From: a virus
Virus record (IMG/VR): IMGVR_UViG_3300017956_000167
Coordinates: 1-21,260 of that record
Strand: one strand, 5' to 3'
DNA: 21,260 nucleotides
Positions 1,532 through 5,857 of this stretch are shown in pieces (position 1 is the first letter of the stretch; each line of letters begins with the position of its first letter). A model generated the notes under the pieces. It was not told the DNA's origin. It was given only the letters and a program-made list of their open reading frames with translations, and searched no databases. The position numbers were made by a program, and so were the translations under genes.

Positions 1532-3070
1532 TTATACATTCCAGTATGTAGCTCTACTCTTTCTACTGTCTTCCTCATAGTCAGGATCATCTGGGTGAGT
1601 AAGATGCCATGAATCTTTCATGTAGTGTACTGCCATTGTTAGAGCATCCACTTGGTCATCATGGGCCGCATTTGGAAAACGTATAAGTTCTTCTACTAAG
1701 TCATCTGCCCACTTCTTGTTCATGGGTATCCAGACTCTACCTGATTCCATCATGGGAGTTGCAGCATAAACTCTGGATACCTTATCCTTGTCGGGATTAT
1801 ATTCTAATACTGGTAGTCCTGCTCTACGCATGTCTTGTATGAGAGACTGTCCAGATGCTTTCTTCTCTACCATGCAGATGTCAGGCTTATGTTGGTTGTA
1901 TAACTTCTGAGCCATACGCCTTAGTTCTGGATATTCATATCTACCTTTGATATTACCTAGCAATATGAGATGTGGAGCAAAGTCTTCATACCCTTGATTA
2001 TCTTGGTTATACATGTAGAAGATACCCCATGTCTGTATGACACTGTAGTCAGCCGTATTTGATGTAGAGAAAGCTGTATCATAAGTCTGTATTACAAAAT
2101 CACAGCTAGGTGGTTCTCCATACTCCCAGTTCTTTAACCATCTCTTCTTGATTAAACCACCTTCTTCTGGTGTGGGATCTTGCATGTACAGAGCATTCCA
2201 ATAACGAGATCCATTTGAAGCTTTGATCTCATTCTCATCTACCTTGAGTACATGATCTGGTTTCCATTCTGGAAAATAGCTGTGGCCTACAGGTAAGTCA
2301 AGGAGTTCTGCTGCTTCATCGTCCAACCATGCTGGTATCTTTACGACATCCCAAGGTATTGTCTCATAGTCTGGCATGTTCTCTTGTTGTTTTAGAAGCC
2401 AACCACAGAGATCATCATAGTGATACCGTGTATTGATTATAACTATCGCACCATCTGGCATGATACGAGTTCTCAGACCAGCAGGATACCACTCTTTTAT
2501 AAATCTTCTACCTGCACTTGAGATAGCATCTTCTTCAGACATAGCATCATCAAGGATTGCAACATGAGCACCACGACCAGCTATCTGACTACGTACACCA
2601 GCAGCATAATATGTACCGTTTTTGTTTGTCTTCCACTTACCTGCTGCCCTTACATCACTACGTAGTTCCACACCACGGAATACCTTTTTAAATTCTTCTG
2701 TATTTACGATGTCTCTTACTGATCTACCAAAGTCACTTGCCAGTTGATCACTGTGAGATATGGTCAATAGCTCATGTTCAGGGTTTCTACCTACGTACCA
2801 TGCAGGAAATAGCTTGGAGCAGACAACAGATTTTGATGAACGTGGAGGGAGGAAGACCATCAGCCTCTTGATCTCACCTGATTCTACCTTTTGTAGCTTA
2901 TCAGAGATCACTTCTATGTGTCTACCCATTTTAAAGTCAGACACAATCTGTGGAGCCATTAGTCTTACGAAGGAAAGAAAGTCAGTATTACATTGAAGAT
3001 TCACTTGTTGAGACAACAAACCTTCTAACTGCATATAAGTTTCTATATAGTTACTATTTATTTGTTCCAT
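1532..3070 (-). CDS. terL: Terminase large subunit (ATPase-nuclease packaging motor)
   Basis: This 512-residue protein is the DNA-packaging motor, which translocates concatemeric phage DNA into the prohead and cuts it. The N-terminal ATPase half has a Walker A of the terminase type, LPPRSSKS (74-81, usually PPRxGKS), and an AGRGAHVAILDDAMSEED block (164-181) with Walker B acidic residues D174 and D175. The C-terminal RNase H-like nuclease half shows D331 in QTYDTAFS, E402 in VEKKASG and D471/D472 in HDDQVDALT. Full length is typical of TerL. It is the first gene of the leftward module. The ATG at 3070 has no ribosome site but has a strong promoter directly upstream. The next Met (residue 13) also lacks one. 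No small terminase subunit is recognised in the window. Confidence 0.96.
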   Translation of the reverse strand: MEQINSNYIETYMQLEGLLSQQVNLQCNTDFLSFVRLMAPQIVSDFKMGRHIEVISDKLQKVESGEIKRLMVFLPPRSSKSVVCSKLFPAWYVGRNPEHELLTISHSDQLASDFGRSVRDIVNTEEFKKVFRGVELRSDVRAAGKWKTNKNGTYYAAGVRSQIAGRGAHVAILDDAMSEEDAISSAGRRFIKEWYPAGLRTRIMPDGAIVIINTRYHYDDLCGWLLKQQENMPDYETIPWDVVKIPAWLDDEAAELLDLPVGHSYFPEWKPDHVLKVDENEIKASNGSRYWNALYMQDPTPEEGGLIKKRWLKNWEYGEPPSCDFVIQTYDTAFSTSNTADYSVIQTWGIFYMYNQDNQGYEDFAPHLILLGNIKGRYEYPELRRMAQKLYNQHKPDICMVEKKASGQSLIQDMRRAGLPVLEYNPDKDKVSRVYAATPMMESGRVWIPMNKKWADDLVEELIRFPNAAHDDQVDALTMAVHYMKDSWHLTHPDDPDYEEDSRKSRATYWNV

Positions 3071-3077
3071 AGTATAT

Positions 3078-3106
3078 ATTATACACTATACAGTAAGACT
3101 CTACAA
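3078..3106 (-). promoter_or_regulatory. Strong sigma70-like promoter for terL operon
   Basis: On the minus strand a TTGTAG -35 box (3101-3106) is separated by 17 nt from a perfect TATAAT -10 box (3078-3083). A start point about 7 nt beyond the -10 box falls at roughly 3070-3072, on or next to the terL ATG at 3070. The message would then have almost no 5' leader, consistent with the missing ribosome site. Promoter assignment is by consensus only. Confidence 0.6.
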
Positions 3107-3347
3107 TAGAGAATACTAAAAAAATATAAAAAAATATACTATAGAGCTACTACAAAGCATACTTTATAGTACCGGACTGTGGTATTTTAGCAACAGTGAT
3201 AGATATCTTTTTATTTCTAGATGATAATGCCTAGTATTTTGCTAAATATGTGAGTGGGGTATATATATAATATGCATGCGTGTGCGTTTTTGCGTGTACC
3301 CCTACGCATTATGCGACTCAGCCATGCAAATTTTGCAAAGGAAACCT

Positions 3348-3395
3348 AATTAAACCTCTGTAGTAGTAACATAGTGTTACTACAGAGGGTTAATT
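3348..3395 (+). repeat. Bulged hairpin, copy 1 of a repeated intergenic element
   Basis: The outer AATTAA/TTAATT clamp (3348-3353 with 3390-3395) and CCTCT/AGAGG close on a GTA bulge (3360-3362). An 8-bp stem follows, GTAGTAAC (3363-3370) with GTTACTAC (3376-3383), around the loop ATAGT. No T-tract follows, so it is not a classical terminator. Copies 2 and 3 lie at 3812-3864 and 4072-4107. Confidence 0.8.
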
Positions 3396-3579
3396 AGTAG
3401 TTAATTGCTGACGAAATCTCGCTAATTCATCCGAAGGATGGAGAGATTGGTAACATTCACTACTACGTAGTGGCTAGACAAAATCACTCAAGTCTTTGAC
3501 TTGCAAGGCTTTTTCACTGCTTTGCAGTCAATGCATAGCTGCTCTGCAAAGGATGAAATGCTATGCATTTTGAAGAGGC

Positions 3580-3608
3580 TTGACAAGGCCAAATGACGAT
3601 ACTATTGT
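3580..3608 (+). promoter_or_regulatory. Probable rightward early promoter
   Basis: A perfect TTGACA (3580-3585) is followed after 17 nt by TATTGT (3603-3608), which matches 4 of 6 consensus positions. Transcription would begin near 3615 and read the small-gene operon starting at 3667. The stem-loop at 3610-3643 would then lie at or near the 5' end of the transcript. Confidence 0.6.
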
Positions 3609-3609
3609 A

Positions 3610-3643
3610 GCTTTTAGTACGAACTCTAGTGAGTTCTAAAAGC
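3610..3643 (+). other. Stem-loop at the predicted 5' end of the rightward transcript
   Basis: GCTTTTA (3610-3616) pairs with TAAAAGC (3637-3643), and GAACTC (3621-3626) pairs with GAGTTC (3631-3636). The loop is TAGT, and an unpaired GTAC (3617-3620) lies on the 5' side. It lies between the predicted promoter and the ribosome site of the gene at 3667. A 5' hairpin can protect phage mRNA from decay; that role is inferred. Confidence 0.6.
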
Positions 3644-3666
3644 GAGCAATAGAGAGAGGAAAAACA

Positions 3667-3819
3667 ATGCCGTATATATTCGTTGGTTTACTCATGGCAT
3701 TCTTTGCCATGTTTGCTGCTGATCGTTTCAACGATCCATGGCTGATTGGAGGCTGTGGAATACTGTTCCTTATAGGATCAGTATATGTAATTCTTGGTGT
3801 TAAAGACGAAGTTAATTAA
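3667..3819 (+). CDS. Small membrane protein with two transmembrane segments (holin-like candidate)
   Basis: This 50-residue ORF has a clear ribosome site (AGAGAGG about 7 nt before the ATG) just downstream of the rightward promoter. Two hydrophobic segments are visible: about residues 3-18 (YIFVGLLMAFFAMFAA) and 26-45 (LIGGCGILFLIGSVYVILGV). They are joined by a short polar turn, D-R-F-N-D-P, and followed by the charged tail KDEVN. The size and two-helix hairpin shape are those of small holins, but also of many phage-encoded membrane proteins that alter the host. The endolysin gene lies far away at 10484, so lysis function is only a guess. Its stop codon is embedded in hairpin copy 2. Confidence 0.7.
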   Translation: MPYIFVGLLMAFFAMFAADRFNDPWLIGGCGILFLIGSVYVILGVKDEVN

Positions 3820-3864
3820 TAACTCTGTAGTAGTAACGAAGTGTTACTACAGAGTTTTAATTAA
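3812..3864 (+). repeat. Bulged hairpin, copy 2
   Basis: The TTAATTAA arms (3812-3819 with 3857-3864) enclose AACTCT/AGAGTT. Inside are a GTA bulge (3827-3829) and the conserved 8-bp stem GTAGTAAC/GTTACTAC (3830-3837 with 3843-3850) around the loop GAAGT. The left arm contains the stop codon of the small membrane protein gene. Only four T residues follow the core stem, which would be weak as a terminator. Confidence 0.8.
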
Positions 3865-3882
3865 AATATTATGGAGAAAATC

Positions 3883-4062
3883 ATGTCAAATCTAGTATCA
3901 AATCTTCAATTTGAAATCGACCAGTTCCTTGATAGCAAGTATCAAGTTCATACTTCCACCTGTGGTGGAGCAGTAGATCTTCATGACCACGAAGGATGGT
4001 GGCTAGCTACGCTAGACGAAGACGAAGCAAATATTGAAAATATTTCTGCGATATCATTCTAA
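3883..4062 (+). CDS. Small acidic protein of unknown function
   Basis: This 59-residue protein is not recognised. I chose the ATG at 3883 because GGAGA sits just upstream of it; an ATG at 3871 would have no ribosome site and would contain the one used. The sequence runs from a helix-like start (MSNLVSNLQFEIDQFLDSKY) through a TCGGAVDLHDHEGWW segment to an acidic end (LDEDEANIEN). It lies between hairpin copies 2 and 3, so each small gene here is separated by a structured element. A host-acting early protein is possible. Confidence that it is expressed rests on the ribosome site and the position. Confidence 0.65.
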   Translation: MSNLVSNLQFEIDQFLDSKYQVHTSTCGGAVDLHDHEGWWLATLDEDEANIENISAISF

Positions 4063-4071
4063 CCTATTAAC

Positions 4072-4107
4072 CTCTCTATAGTAGTAACCTTGTGTTACTA
4101 CAGAGAG
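4072..4107 (+). repeat. Bulged hairpin, copy 3
   Basis: CTCTCT (4072-4077) pairs with AGAGAG (4102-4107). The bulge is ATA (4078-4080), and the same 8-bp stem GTAGTAAC/GTTACTAC (4081-4088 with 4094-4101) surrounds the loop CTTGT. In all three copies the stem is invariant, the loop ends in GT, and the bulge is 3 nt on the 5' side. The outer stem differs between copies but keeps its pairing. Confidence 0.8.
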
Positions 4108-4167
4108 TTATATAGAACTGTTCAACAACCAGCCAGAAGCAAGTGCTTCGATACATAGGAGATAATC

Positions 4168-4365
4168 ATGGCTACATTCCAAATCTTTGTTAAAGGTAAG
4201 AAAAATAAAACATCTTGGATTGACCTTGAAAAAGGTAAAGACATATTCAGCAAGTCTGCTGAAACTGGGATGCCAATCAGAGTTATCCACCCTTCGGGTA
4301 GCTTCAAAGTGATCCGCAATGCTGACAATCTCCCAGAGGGAGAGCCAACATCTAGCAGAGCCTAG
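4168..4365 (+). CDS. Small basic protein of unknown function
   Basis: This 65-residue protein has a good ribosome site (AGGAGA 7 nt before the ATG). It is lysine-rich in the first half (VKGKKNKTSWIDLEKGKD) and contains IRVIHPSGSFKVIRNADN, which looks like two short beta strands. I do not recognise a family. A short GAAGC-AAGT-GCTTC stem-loop lies just upstream of its ribosome site (about 4136-4149), and another hairpin follows its stop codon. Two leftward ORFs cover the same DNA but have no ribosome site and are taken as shadows. Confidence 0.7.
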   Translation: MATFQIFVKGKKNKTSWIDLEKGKDIFSKSAETGMPIRVIHPSGSFKVIRNADNLPEGEPTSSRA

Positions 4366-4366
4366 A

Positions 4367-4398
4367 CTAAATAATAAACCTACAAGGGTATTATTTAG
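4367..4398 (+). other. Intergenic hairpin
   Basis: A perfect 10-bp stem, CTAAATAATA (4367-4376) with TATTATTTAG (4389-4398), is topped by CCT/AGG across a 2x1 internal loop with an ACA loop. It lies directly after the gene ending at 4365 and before the ribosome site of the gene at 4422. No T-tract follows, so it looks like a processing or stability element rather than a terminator. Confidence 0.65.
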
Positions 4399-4421
4399 AA
4401 ACTTTAACAATGGAGTATATT

Positions 4422-4625
4422 ATGAAAATTTTACCTTTAAGAGATGGTAGCACAGGTTTTCGTTTTCAAGTATTTGGTATTCAAGGTTTATTCCGCAGGA
4501 GAGCTTTTAAAAAGCTGTGGAATGTTGGATCAGGTGAAACCTGTAATAAAATCAACTTTGGTAAGAATGTCTTATACATTCAAAAATCCACACCATCTAA
4601 ATACTTTGCAAGATTTGCAGGTTAA
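4422..4625 (+). CDS. Small basic protein of unknown function
   Basis: This 67-residue protein starts at 4422 (GGAG 7 nt upstream); the in-frame ATG at 4410 overlaps that ribosome site and is unlikely. The sequence is basic and Phe-rich (GFRFQVFGIQGLFRRRAFKK), with a C-terminal half of short hydrophobic strands (NVLYIQKSTPSKYFARFAG). I do not recognise it. A second ORF shifted by one frame (4444-4632) has no ribosome site and is rejected. A long hairpin begins at the stop codon. Confidence 0.65.
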   Translation: MKILPLRDGSTGFRFQVFGIQGLFRRRAFKKLWNVGSGETCNKINFGKNVLYIQKSTPSKYFARFAG

Positions 4626-4690
4626 TATATAAATTAAATGGGGTTACAGCGAAGCTGTACTTCATGTAGCCCCATTTGGTGTATATATTA
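4622..4690 (+). other. Long compound intergenic hairpin
   Basis: AAATGGGGTTACA (4636-4648) pairs with TGTAGCCCCATTT (4665-4677) over 13 bp with one G-T pair. TAATATAT-type arms (from 4622 and up to 4690) extend the stem across an internal loop. The apical part can fold alternatively as ACAGC-GAA-GCTGT. It fills the gap between the genes ending at 4625 and starting at 4707. There is no T-tract. Confidence 0.65.
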
Positions 4691-4706
4691 GCAACAGGAG
4701 ATAGCT

Positions 4707-5342
4707 ATGCTAGTAAAAGAAGCTAAAACATACGGTAATATATCTCAAGGTAATACAAAGATGCCGGGTACTACCTTTGCCATAGATGCATTTGCTTGCA
4801 TTACAGGTAGTAAACTTGCAAAGATAGAAGGTACACCTTGCCACTCTTGCTATGCAAGAAAGTTGCAGAAGCTACGTCCTAGTGTGGATCAAGGCTGGAA
4901 GGCTAATCTTGCCAAGTGGCAGAAGTCTGACAAGTCTATGTGGGTCTTTGCTATGGTCTTTCAAATAGAAAGATACAACACAGATGGCTATCATAGATGG
5001 TTTGACAGTGGAGACTTACAGTCTGTAGAAATGCTTAAAAACATCGTAGATGTTGCATTGCTAACACCAAAGATCCAACACTGGCTACCAACTCAAGAGC
5101 GTAGCATCGTTAAACAGTACCGCAAACAGTATGGACAAGAGCCATCTAATCTAGTGATTAGAGTATCAGCATCAAAAGTAGATGCACAAAAAGCTCCAGA
5201 CTTTGCTAATACATCTACAGTATTCAAGGACAAAGCACCCATTGGCAAAGTATGCAAAGCAAACACTAGAGGTAATCAGTGTGGCCCTTGCAGGGATTGC
5301 TGGGATGCCACTGTCGAGATTGTATCCTATCCAAAGCACTAA
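4707..5342 (+). CDS. Gp88-like cysteine-rich phage protein
   Basis: This 211-residue protein has a clear ribosome site (AGGAGA). Two cysteine groups are visible: C31, C45 and C48 (TPCHSCYARK), and C183, C192, C195 and C198 (C-x8-C-G-P-C-R-D-C). Between them are HRWFDSGDLQS (96-106) and HWLPTQER (125-132). This layout is that of a phage family I know as gene product 88 (Gp88): a CxxCYA start, an (R/H)xxxSGD block and a W-x-x-T-x-(R/E) block. Its biochemical function is unknown to me. The cysteines suggest bound metal or an iron-sulfur cluster. It is the largest protein of the early block and is flanked by hairpins on both sides. Confidence 0.65.
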   Translation: MLVKEAKTYGNISQGNTKMPGTTFAIDAFACITGSKLAKIEGTPCHSCYARKLQKLRPSVDQGWKANLAKWQKSDKSMWVFAMVFQIERYNTDGYHRWFDSGDLQSVEMLKNIVDVALLTPKIQHWLPTQERSIVKQYRKQYGQEPSNLVIRVSASKVDAQKAPDFANTSTVFKDKAPIGKVCKANTRGNQCGPCRDCWDATVEIVSYPKH

Positions 5343-5343
5343 C

Positions 5344-5394
5344 TTAATTGGAACTCTTAGTAGAGTATCTACGATACTAAAGAGTTACAATTAA
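5344..5394 (+). other. Bulged hairpin related in design to copies 1-3
   Basis: The TTAATTG/CAATTAA clamp (5344-5350 with 5388-5394) encloses AACTCTT/AAGAGTT. An asymmetric internal loop of 5 nt on the 5' side and 1 nt on the 3' side follows, then AGTATC/GATACT with the loop TAC. The TTAATT clamp, the ACTCT stem and the 5'-side bulge repeat the plan of copies 1 and 2, but the inner stem sequence differs. Confidence 0.7.
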
Positions 5395-5408
5395 ATATGG
5401 AGATTGTA

Positions 5409-5648
5409 ATGAAAAAAATAATCCACATCAATCAGCACATCATTAAACGCAATGCCAAAACTGGAGAGCGTAACCCTGTAATTACTTGTAAGACATACAA
5501 GTCTAATGACTATGCTCATGAGGTTGCTATTGATGGCCCTTGCAAGATAGTGTATAGTCCAGACAAGCCGCTATCTTGTGGGGCTAAAGTGTGGATAGAG
5601 ACAGAAGCCGGAGTACAATTAAAGATTGTAGAGGAGACTTTGAAATAA
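5409..5648 (+). CDS. Conserved small phage protein (HINQHxIxxNAKTG family), unknown function
   Basis: This 79-residue protein starts at 5409 (GGAG 9 nt upstream). The sequence IHINQHIIKRNAKTGERNPV, then KTYKSNDYAHEVAIDGP and SPDKPLSCGAKVWIETEA, matches a small protein I have seen in many environmental phages and some bacterial genomes, always annotated as hypothetical. It looks like a compact beta-rich domain. No function is known to me. Its stop codon overlaps the next start codon (TAATG), which suggests translational coupling. Confidence 0.75.
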   Translation: MKKIIHINQHIIKRNAKTGERNPVITCKTYKSNDYAHEVAIDGPCKIVYSPDKPLSCGAKVWIETEAGVQLKIVEETLK

Positions 5649-5857
5649 TGCCAACATATAATTTTTTAATTAAATGTATTGAGTGTGATGGTGAAGGAGA
5701 ATACCAACTAAGTTCAAATCCATCTTCCCCTATTTATGAGTGTAGATATTGTCAAAATGGTTGGACTGAAGAGACAGACTTCTATGATTCCATAAAAGAC
5801 CTTCAGCAAGATTATCCTGATGCTGTAGACATCTTTGATGTAGATGACGAATTTTAA
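5648..5857 (+). CDS. Small zinc-ribbon protein (DnaJ-type CxxCxGxG start)
   Basis: This 69-residue protein starts at the ATG that overlaps the upstream stop, with AGGAGA 11 nt before it. Residues from about 9 read CIECDGEGEY, and from about 29 CRYCQNGW. The two CxxC pairs, the first followed by xGxG, look like one zinc-binding unit of the DnaJ central domain. The C-terminal 30 residues are acidic (DLQQDYPDAVDIFDVDDEF). Such small zinc ribbons are common in phage early regions and may bind nucleic acid or a host protein. The target here is unknown. Confidence 0.7.
   Translation: MPTYNFLIKCIECDGEGEYQLSSNPSSPIYECRYCQNGWTEETDFYDSIKDLQQDYPDAVDIFDVDDEF

Follow-up and report, generated by a model that had tools for sequence, protein, structure and literature searches.

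We identified a solidly supported, covarying family of RNA hairpins that lie on the sense strand between the small early genes of a group of phages, in multiple copies and restricted to one clade. The family is recurrent, absent from Rfam, and carried by phages known here from environmental records alone. Our proposal, made tentatively and at somewhat less than an even chance, is that the hairpins may be intercistronic mRNA processing or stability elements working like the RNase III sites of phage T7. The window, a 21,260-bp virus record, contains a terminase large subunit gene, which served to find relatives and is oriented divergently to a cluster of small early genes; beyond this cluster lie genes for a T7-type primase-helicase, DNA polymerase A, a Cas4-like exonuclease, and ribonucleotide reductase. 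The closest annotated terminases, about 41% identical, belong to phage 023Pt_psg01 and Pelagibacter phage HTVC027P.

Three hairpins had been picked out in the window by a sequence-only reading, and all three were found where it had placed them, with the 8-bp arms GTAGTAAC/GTTACTAC, a loop of the form NNNGT, and the outer stems that it quoted (Table 1). Each copy has a longer stem than first described, spanning 52 nt once an AT-rich outer arm is included, and RNA folding against shuffled sequences gave z-scores of -5.6, -5.3, and -4.6 for copies 1, 2, and 3. The core pattern, allowing up to two mismatches, matches nine times in the window over both strands, against 1.5 matches expected. Element 1 occupies the leader upstream of the first early gene and has an A·G mismatch 12 pairs below its apex. 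Element 2 overlaps the stop codon of the 50-aa ORF and is followed by the 59-aa ORF, and element 3 begins 2 nt past the stop of the latter, with the 65-aa ORF downstream.

Table 1. Positions of the hairpin elements and associated features in the window and in related records.
Feature	Record	Position	Strand	Detail
Terminase large subunit (phrog_38)	window	1532..3070	-	divergent orientation
Element 1, class A	window	3346..3397	+	loop ATAGT; covariance model E 1.7e-8
Conserved leader, element 1 to class C element	window	3398..3601	+	conserved in 24 distinct relatives
Class C element	window	3602..3652	+	CTATTG..GCTTTTA[GTAC]GAACTC-TAGT-GAGTTCTAAAAGC..CAATAG; fold z -4.1
Small early ORF	window	3667..3819	+	50 aa
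Element 2, class A	window	3813..3864	+	loop GAAGT; covariance model E 2.7e-5
Small early ORF	window	3883..4062	+	59 aa; in relatives, a class A, B, or C element stands upstream of the orthologue
Element 3, class A	window	4064..4115	+	loop CTTGT, bulge ATA; covariance model E 3.2e-3
Small early ORF	window	4168..4365	+	65 aa
Class B relict	window	4369..4396	+	arms AAATAATAAACC..GGGTATTATTT kept, apex missing; direct comparison with relatives
Class B element	window	5344..5394	+	apex GTAGAGTATCTACGATAC; covariance model E 4.8e-11
Lysine-rich late protein	G001	45560-46243		
Lysine-rich late protein	G004	41745-42383		
Lysine-rich late protein	G007	4904-5518		
T-arm-like stretch, about 120 nt	L014	1526-1695	-	
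T-arm-like stretch, about 120 nt	L028	178-347	-	
T-arm-like stretch, about 120 nt	L052	1681-1850	-	
T-arm-like stretch, about 120 nt	L254	6248-6417	-	
ACTTA-bulge hairpin	L251	8891	-	
ACTTA-bulge hairpin	L264	12367	+	
ACTTA-bulge hairpin	L270	1558	+	
ACTTA-bulge hairpin	L309	2328	-	

The window holds more than these three class A elements, including a related form (class C), a complete class B element, and a class B relict. The class C element ends 14 nt upstream of the start codon of the 50-aa ORF, and the complete class B element has a stop codon (5340-5342) immediately upstream and an ATG at 5409, 14 nt downstream. At the site of the relict, two relatives (L026 and L074) carry the apex, and a third (L018) has lost still more than the window has. 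The leader from element 1 to the class C element is conserved and probably forms an early promoter or operator region; it contains a CATCC..GGATG inverted repeat, palindromic sequence (CACTACTACGTAGTG; TACTAC..GTAGTA), and a TTGACA at 3580 with TATTGT 17 nt on. A separate long intergenic hairpin, ATGGGGTTACA..TGTAGCCCCAT, with extra bases on its 3' side, is found at 4623-4690.

The exact core pattern of class A occurs in 12 IMG/VR stretches, one of which (L006) has no lower stem. In relatives with this core, the inner part does not vary and changes in the outer stem are compensated; the pairing described earlier for CCTCT/AGAGG and AACTCT/AGAGTT is kept, and AAATAT/ATATTT, CCCTT/AAGGG, and CCTTC/GAAGG add further compensated variants. 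At the same intergenic sites, other relatives have different apices on a similar stem, GTAGAGTATC-TTAC-GATAC in class B and GAACGAACTC-TAT-GAGTTC in class C. Upstream of the 59-aa ORF or its orthologue stands a class A element in the window, L026, L074, and L056; the element there is class C in L028 and L044 and class B in L228, L095, L262, and L299. Since different apex classes precede the same orthologous gene, the classes look interchangeable, which makes the recognition factor testable.

When the class B apex pattern was searched with the stem left unspecified, 72 viral stretches matched, and the lower stem was paired (at least 4 of 6 positions) at 76 of the 78 distinct viral sites, the exceptions being in L284 and L275. 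A chance repeat is ruled out by these paired lower stems at sites found by apex only, together with the excess of core matches and the fold z-scores. The same apex matched seven times in bacterial genomes (L316-L322), where 2 to 5 of the 6 lower-stem positions pair and the sites look like chance, and the matches to a loose pattern with any 3-7-nt loop were also regarded as mostly chance. A covariance model built from 55 class B elements of other phages, with the window sequence left out, recovered all three reported hairpins and the complete class B element as a fourth. Within the 55-element alignment the class B apex is nearly invariant and the stems drift, differing even among copies of one genome. 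A further hairpin type in some relatives has an ACTTA bulge, a GCTTTC/GAAAGC upper stem, a variable loop (TTT, GGGAC), and covarying outer stems. Rfam 15 gave nothing at the gathering threshold in the window or eight relatives, and nothing at E<=1 in window positions 3000-5700. The RNA family is new but of a familiar kind, that of intercistronic phage hairpins, and its constant apex, for which two folds are possible, is unusual.

An ungapped alignment of the 55 class B elements shows both-sided changes at 17 of 23 pairs, and 89.6% of its cells pair in the true register versus 30-54% with the partner slid, figures in which the innermost pairs are favored by construction, the elements having been gathered with a 7-nt complementary seed. 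The apex-only count of 76 of 78 is free of that effect, and class A alone has both-sided changes at 10-11 pairs. On the gene-sense strand, the first 12 pairs include 35 G·U versus 7 A·C, and all 20 pairs, where the outer register is uncertain, include 49 versus 29; as counts from related, non-independent sequences, these describe a trend rather than a formal test. The excess of G·U over A·C on this strand points to the sense RNA as the functional form. Conservation and covariation are both present in relatives, and the sequence-only proposal that selection acts on RNA shape stands, strongly supported by the covarying lower stems and the wobble bias.

Strong palindromes between genes might also be intrinsic terminators or DNA operators, a reading that we regard as extremely improbable. 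The bias toward G·U over A·C argues against a DNA operator, of which an asymmetric apex on covarying stems would be unexpected, and no consistent T-tract follows the arms, as a terminator would need immediately behind a G+C-rich stem. The earlier judgment that the hairpins do not look like terminators agrees with this and with their site between closely spaced genes; T content after the arms varies, and none of the window elements received a terminator call.

Outward from the apex, the elements comprise about 11 almost perfect pairs of variable sequence, a mismatch at pair 12, and an AT-rich arm of 7-8 pairs. Pair 12 is unpaired in 43% of elements, mostly as A·G (35 of 119), against 0-7% for pairs 1-11. 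The distribution of arm lengths has a sharp peak at 19-20 pairs and a lesser group at 11, made up of elements with no predicted pairing in the outer arm. In relatives, each element occupies the gap between a small early gene's stop and the Shine-Dalgarno sequence of the gene that follows: where an upstream stop was found (94 elements), it is mostly no more than about 10 nt from the start of the arm, and the median distance from arm end to the next start codon is 23 nt. This exact placement, along with the strong folding, would suit hairpins that remain uncut and act as stability or insulation devices, either blocking exonucleases or barring ribosome read-through and translational coupling between close cistrons. 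We consider this unlikely, as a generic barrier needs neither a constant apex nor a 19-20-pair ruler nor a mismatch at pair 12.

The 3-nt bulge that the earlier reading described as fixed on the 5' side held up in part. A bulged register is possible in all three class A copies, whose 5' arm holds GTAGTA and so allows two registers, but the minimum-energy fold is bulged in copy 3 only. The lowest-energy fold of copies 1 and 2 is a continuous stem, the bulged form of copy 2 being 2.0 kcal/mol less stable; besides copy 3, the class C element of the window has its best fold with the bulge. Across 119 elements, both registers are available in 94, the symmetric one only in 19, and the bulged one only in 5. 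The symmetric register, with a tandem GA/GA or GUA/GU internal loop, 2-3 pairs, and a small loop, was computed to be 1.4-7.4 kcal/mol more stable where both exist, in a set that leans that way through having been collected with arms in the symmetric register. With the symmetric GA/GA loop favored in most relatives, we reject a fixed 3-nt bulge as the main selected feature for most elements. The duplicated 5' segments differ by class (GUA/GUA, AGU/AGU, GAAC/GAAC, GUU/GUU), with both copies and their partner changing together between classes. On these modeled folds, a bistable element whose 3' strand would pair with either copy of the segment in most classes is conceivable but quite unlikely; if it were so, a factor-driven switch between a continuous GA/GA-capped helix and a bulged one could gate the cutting or reading of each early cistron.

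The elements are found in the early cluster of five records of about 56 kb (G001, G004, G007, G013, and G014), mostly close together and with a few outlying matches, and a record may hold up to about eight on the sense strand (L296). Another record grouped as element-bearing, G008, has class C-like elements only and gives no model match. The model search found no elements in G002, G003, G005, G006, G009, or G010, and no equivalent hairpins were seen by eye in the early region of the element-free relatives. Because close relatives, with terminases about 90% identical, have neither the elements nor an equivalent, their function appears to be dispensable in the wider group, a point that weighs against the processing reading. 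There were no model matches in the partial records of 023Pt_psg01, HTVC027P, HTVC023P, and DSL-LC04, and blastn against isolate phages returned nothing for class A and weak partial matches only, at E 1 or worse, for class B. In some relatives, about 120 conserved nucleotides lie between a class B element and the next gene; this stretch includes a T-arm-like GGGTTTGGGTTCGATTCCC and is closed by GAACTATTCGA/TCGGATAGTTC. ARAGORN found no tRNA in L028, L052, L056, or L254.

The comparison of gene content between six element-bearing and six element-free genomes, which is confounded by kinship, yielded no convincing cognate protein. Two families follow the elements most closely: a lysine-rich late protein, at most 227 aa long, and an early ORF of 71 aa without assigned function. 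The lysine-rich protein is present in six of six element-bearing and none of six element-free genomes, with a longer ORF in G013, and its tracking is probably an effect of kinship.

A somewhat unlikely yet serious alternative to processing is that an RNA-binding protein of the phage or the host binds at the apex, which would serve as a translational operator or a boxB/put-like antitermination site, with the stem as its presenter. The near-invariance of the apex within a class on drifting stems would be expected of such a site, as would a copy in the leader that precedes the first gene, with further copies ahead of several small genes, and the two registers possible in most elements are what a protein- or RNA-dependent switch would require. 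It is harder to reconcile with several apex classes substituting before the same gene, and none of the early protein families that follow the elements has an obvious RNA-binding role. Antitermination normally needs one site per operon, which counts against that version in particular. Lambda boxB/nut hairpins and phage coat or translational operators consist of a lower stem, a small defect, a short upper stem, and a compact loop; the elements share this layout, on stems that are far longer. The put RNA of HK022 acts on the zinc-binding domain of the RNA polymerase beta' subunit. This early leader RNA, about 70 nt long, has two stem-loops as well as bulges and a G-A contact, and one site lies downstream of each early promoter (PMC9378689). 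The elements resemble it in these features of an early leader RNA (stem-loops, bulges, and G-A contact) and differ in being single-hairpin units with separate spacers, several per operon.

The many copies among small, variable early genes, with classes swapping at the same site, also recall mobile regulatory cassettes that would aid the shuffling of such genes. One example is the T4-type PeSL (promoter early stem-loop) cassette, cited in PMC4503421, in which an early promoter adjoins each stem-loop. PeSLs are like the present hairpins in being stem-loops that recur among small early genes in a plastic region, and unlike them in that the hairpins here have no promoter at a fixed distance. The TTGACA of the leader does lie 17 nt before the outer arm of the next element, but no -35 or -10 at a fixed distance was found in 119 elements, and stems differ within one genome, so the copies are not recent. 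We therefore find mobile cassettes very unlikely. The early region of phage N4 offers another parallel, its virion RNA polymerase promoters being short single-strand DNA hairpins; the elements are likewise small hairpins in an early region, whereas their wobble bias points to RNA. A search for T7-type RNA polymerase (PF00940) gave no match in 12 records and none in the control.

Among processing, stability, and protein binding, the three roles first suggested, processing or stability fits the position of the hairpins best. In the sense transcript, each element would fold into an irregular hairpin of about 20 bp with a compact conserved apex, and a double-strand-specific endoribonuclease may cut in or near the mismatch or the outer stem. 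The simplest candidate enzyme is host RNase III, since no phage-encoded RNase III was detected in the phages examined, in a search to which control genomes did give matches. The polycistronic early transcript would then become separate messages with hairpins at their new ends, which could uncouple and stabilize the adjoining cistrons. We infer cleavage, the enzyme, and the effect on mRNA from what the elements have in common with T7 sites: their position and length, the mismatch, the sense strand, and the lack of terminator or promoter signals. This resemblance favors processing or end protection. RNase III needs no fixed apex sequence, and the constancy of the apex, which processing leaves unexplained, keeps a binding protein a serious rival; perhaps the apex is read by a host or phage protein.

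We also folded the RNase III sites R0.3, R0.5, R1, R1.1, and R1.3 of T7 early mRNA at the positions that we take to be theirs. At these presumed positions they form irregular hairpins much the same in size as ours, and in four of five the cut falls 27-35 nt ahead of the start codon. In both systems, several irregular hairpins lie between small early genes, on the sense strand, near the next start, and with no terminator tail. The elements here are, like T7-type sites, irregular hairpins about two helical turns long that contain an internal defect (arms of 19-20 pairs, mismatch at pair 12), set between cistrons of an early operon just before the next gene. T7 sites have constant stem bases and a larger internal loop, whereas the present family has a constant apex and a variable stem, and stems like the T7 AAGGTC/GGCCTT were not seen in it by eye. 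As no sequence is shared, we class the elements as working alike rather than as members of the T7 group. The covariance model is ready for use in annotation, and the family can be set beside the intergenic cutting of early mRNA in T7 as an independent case for comparison.
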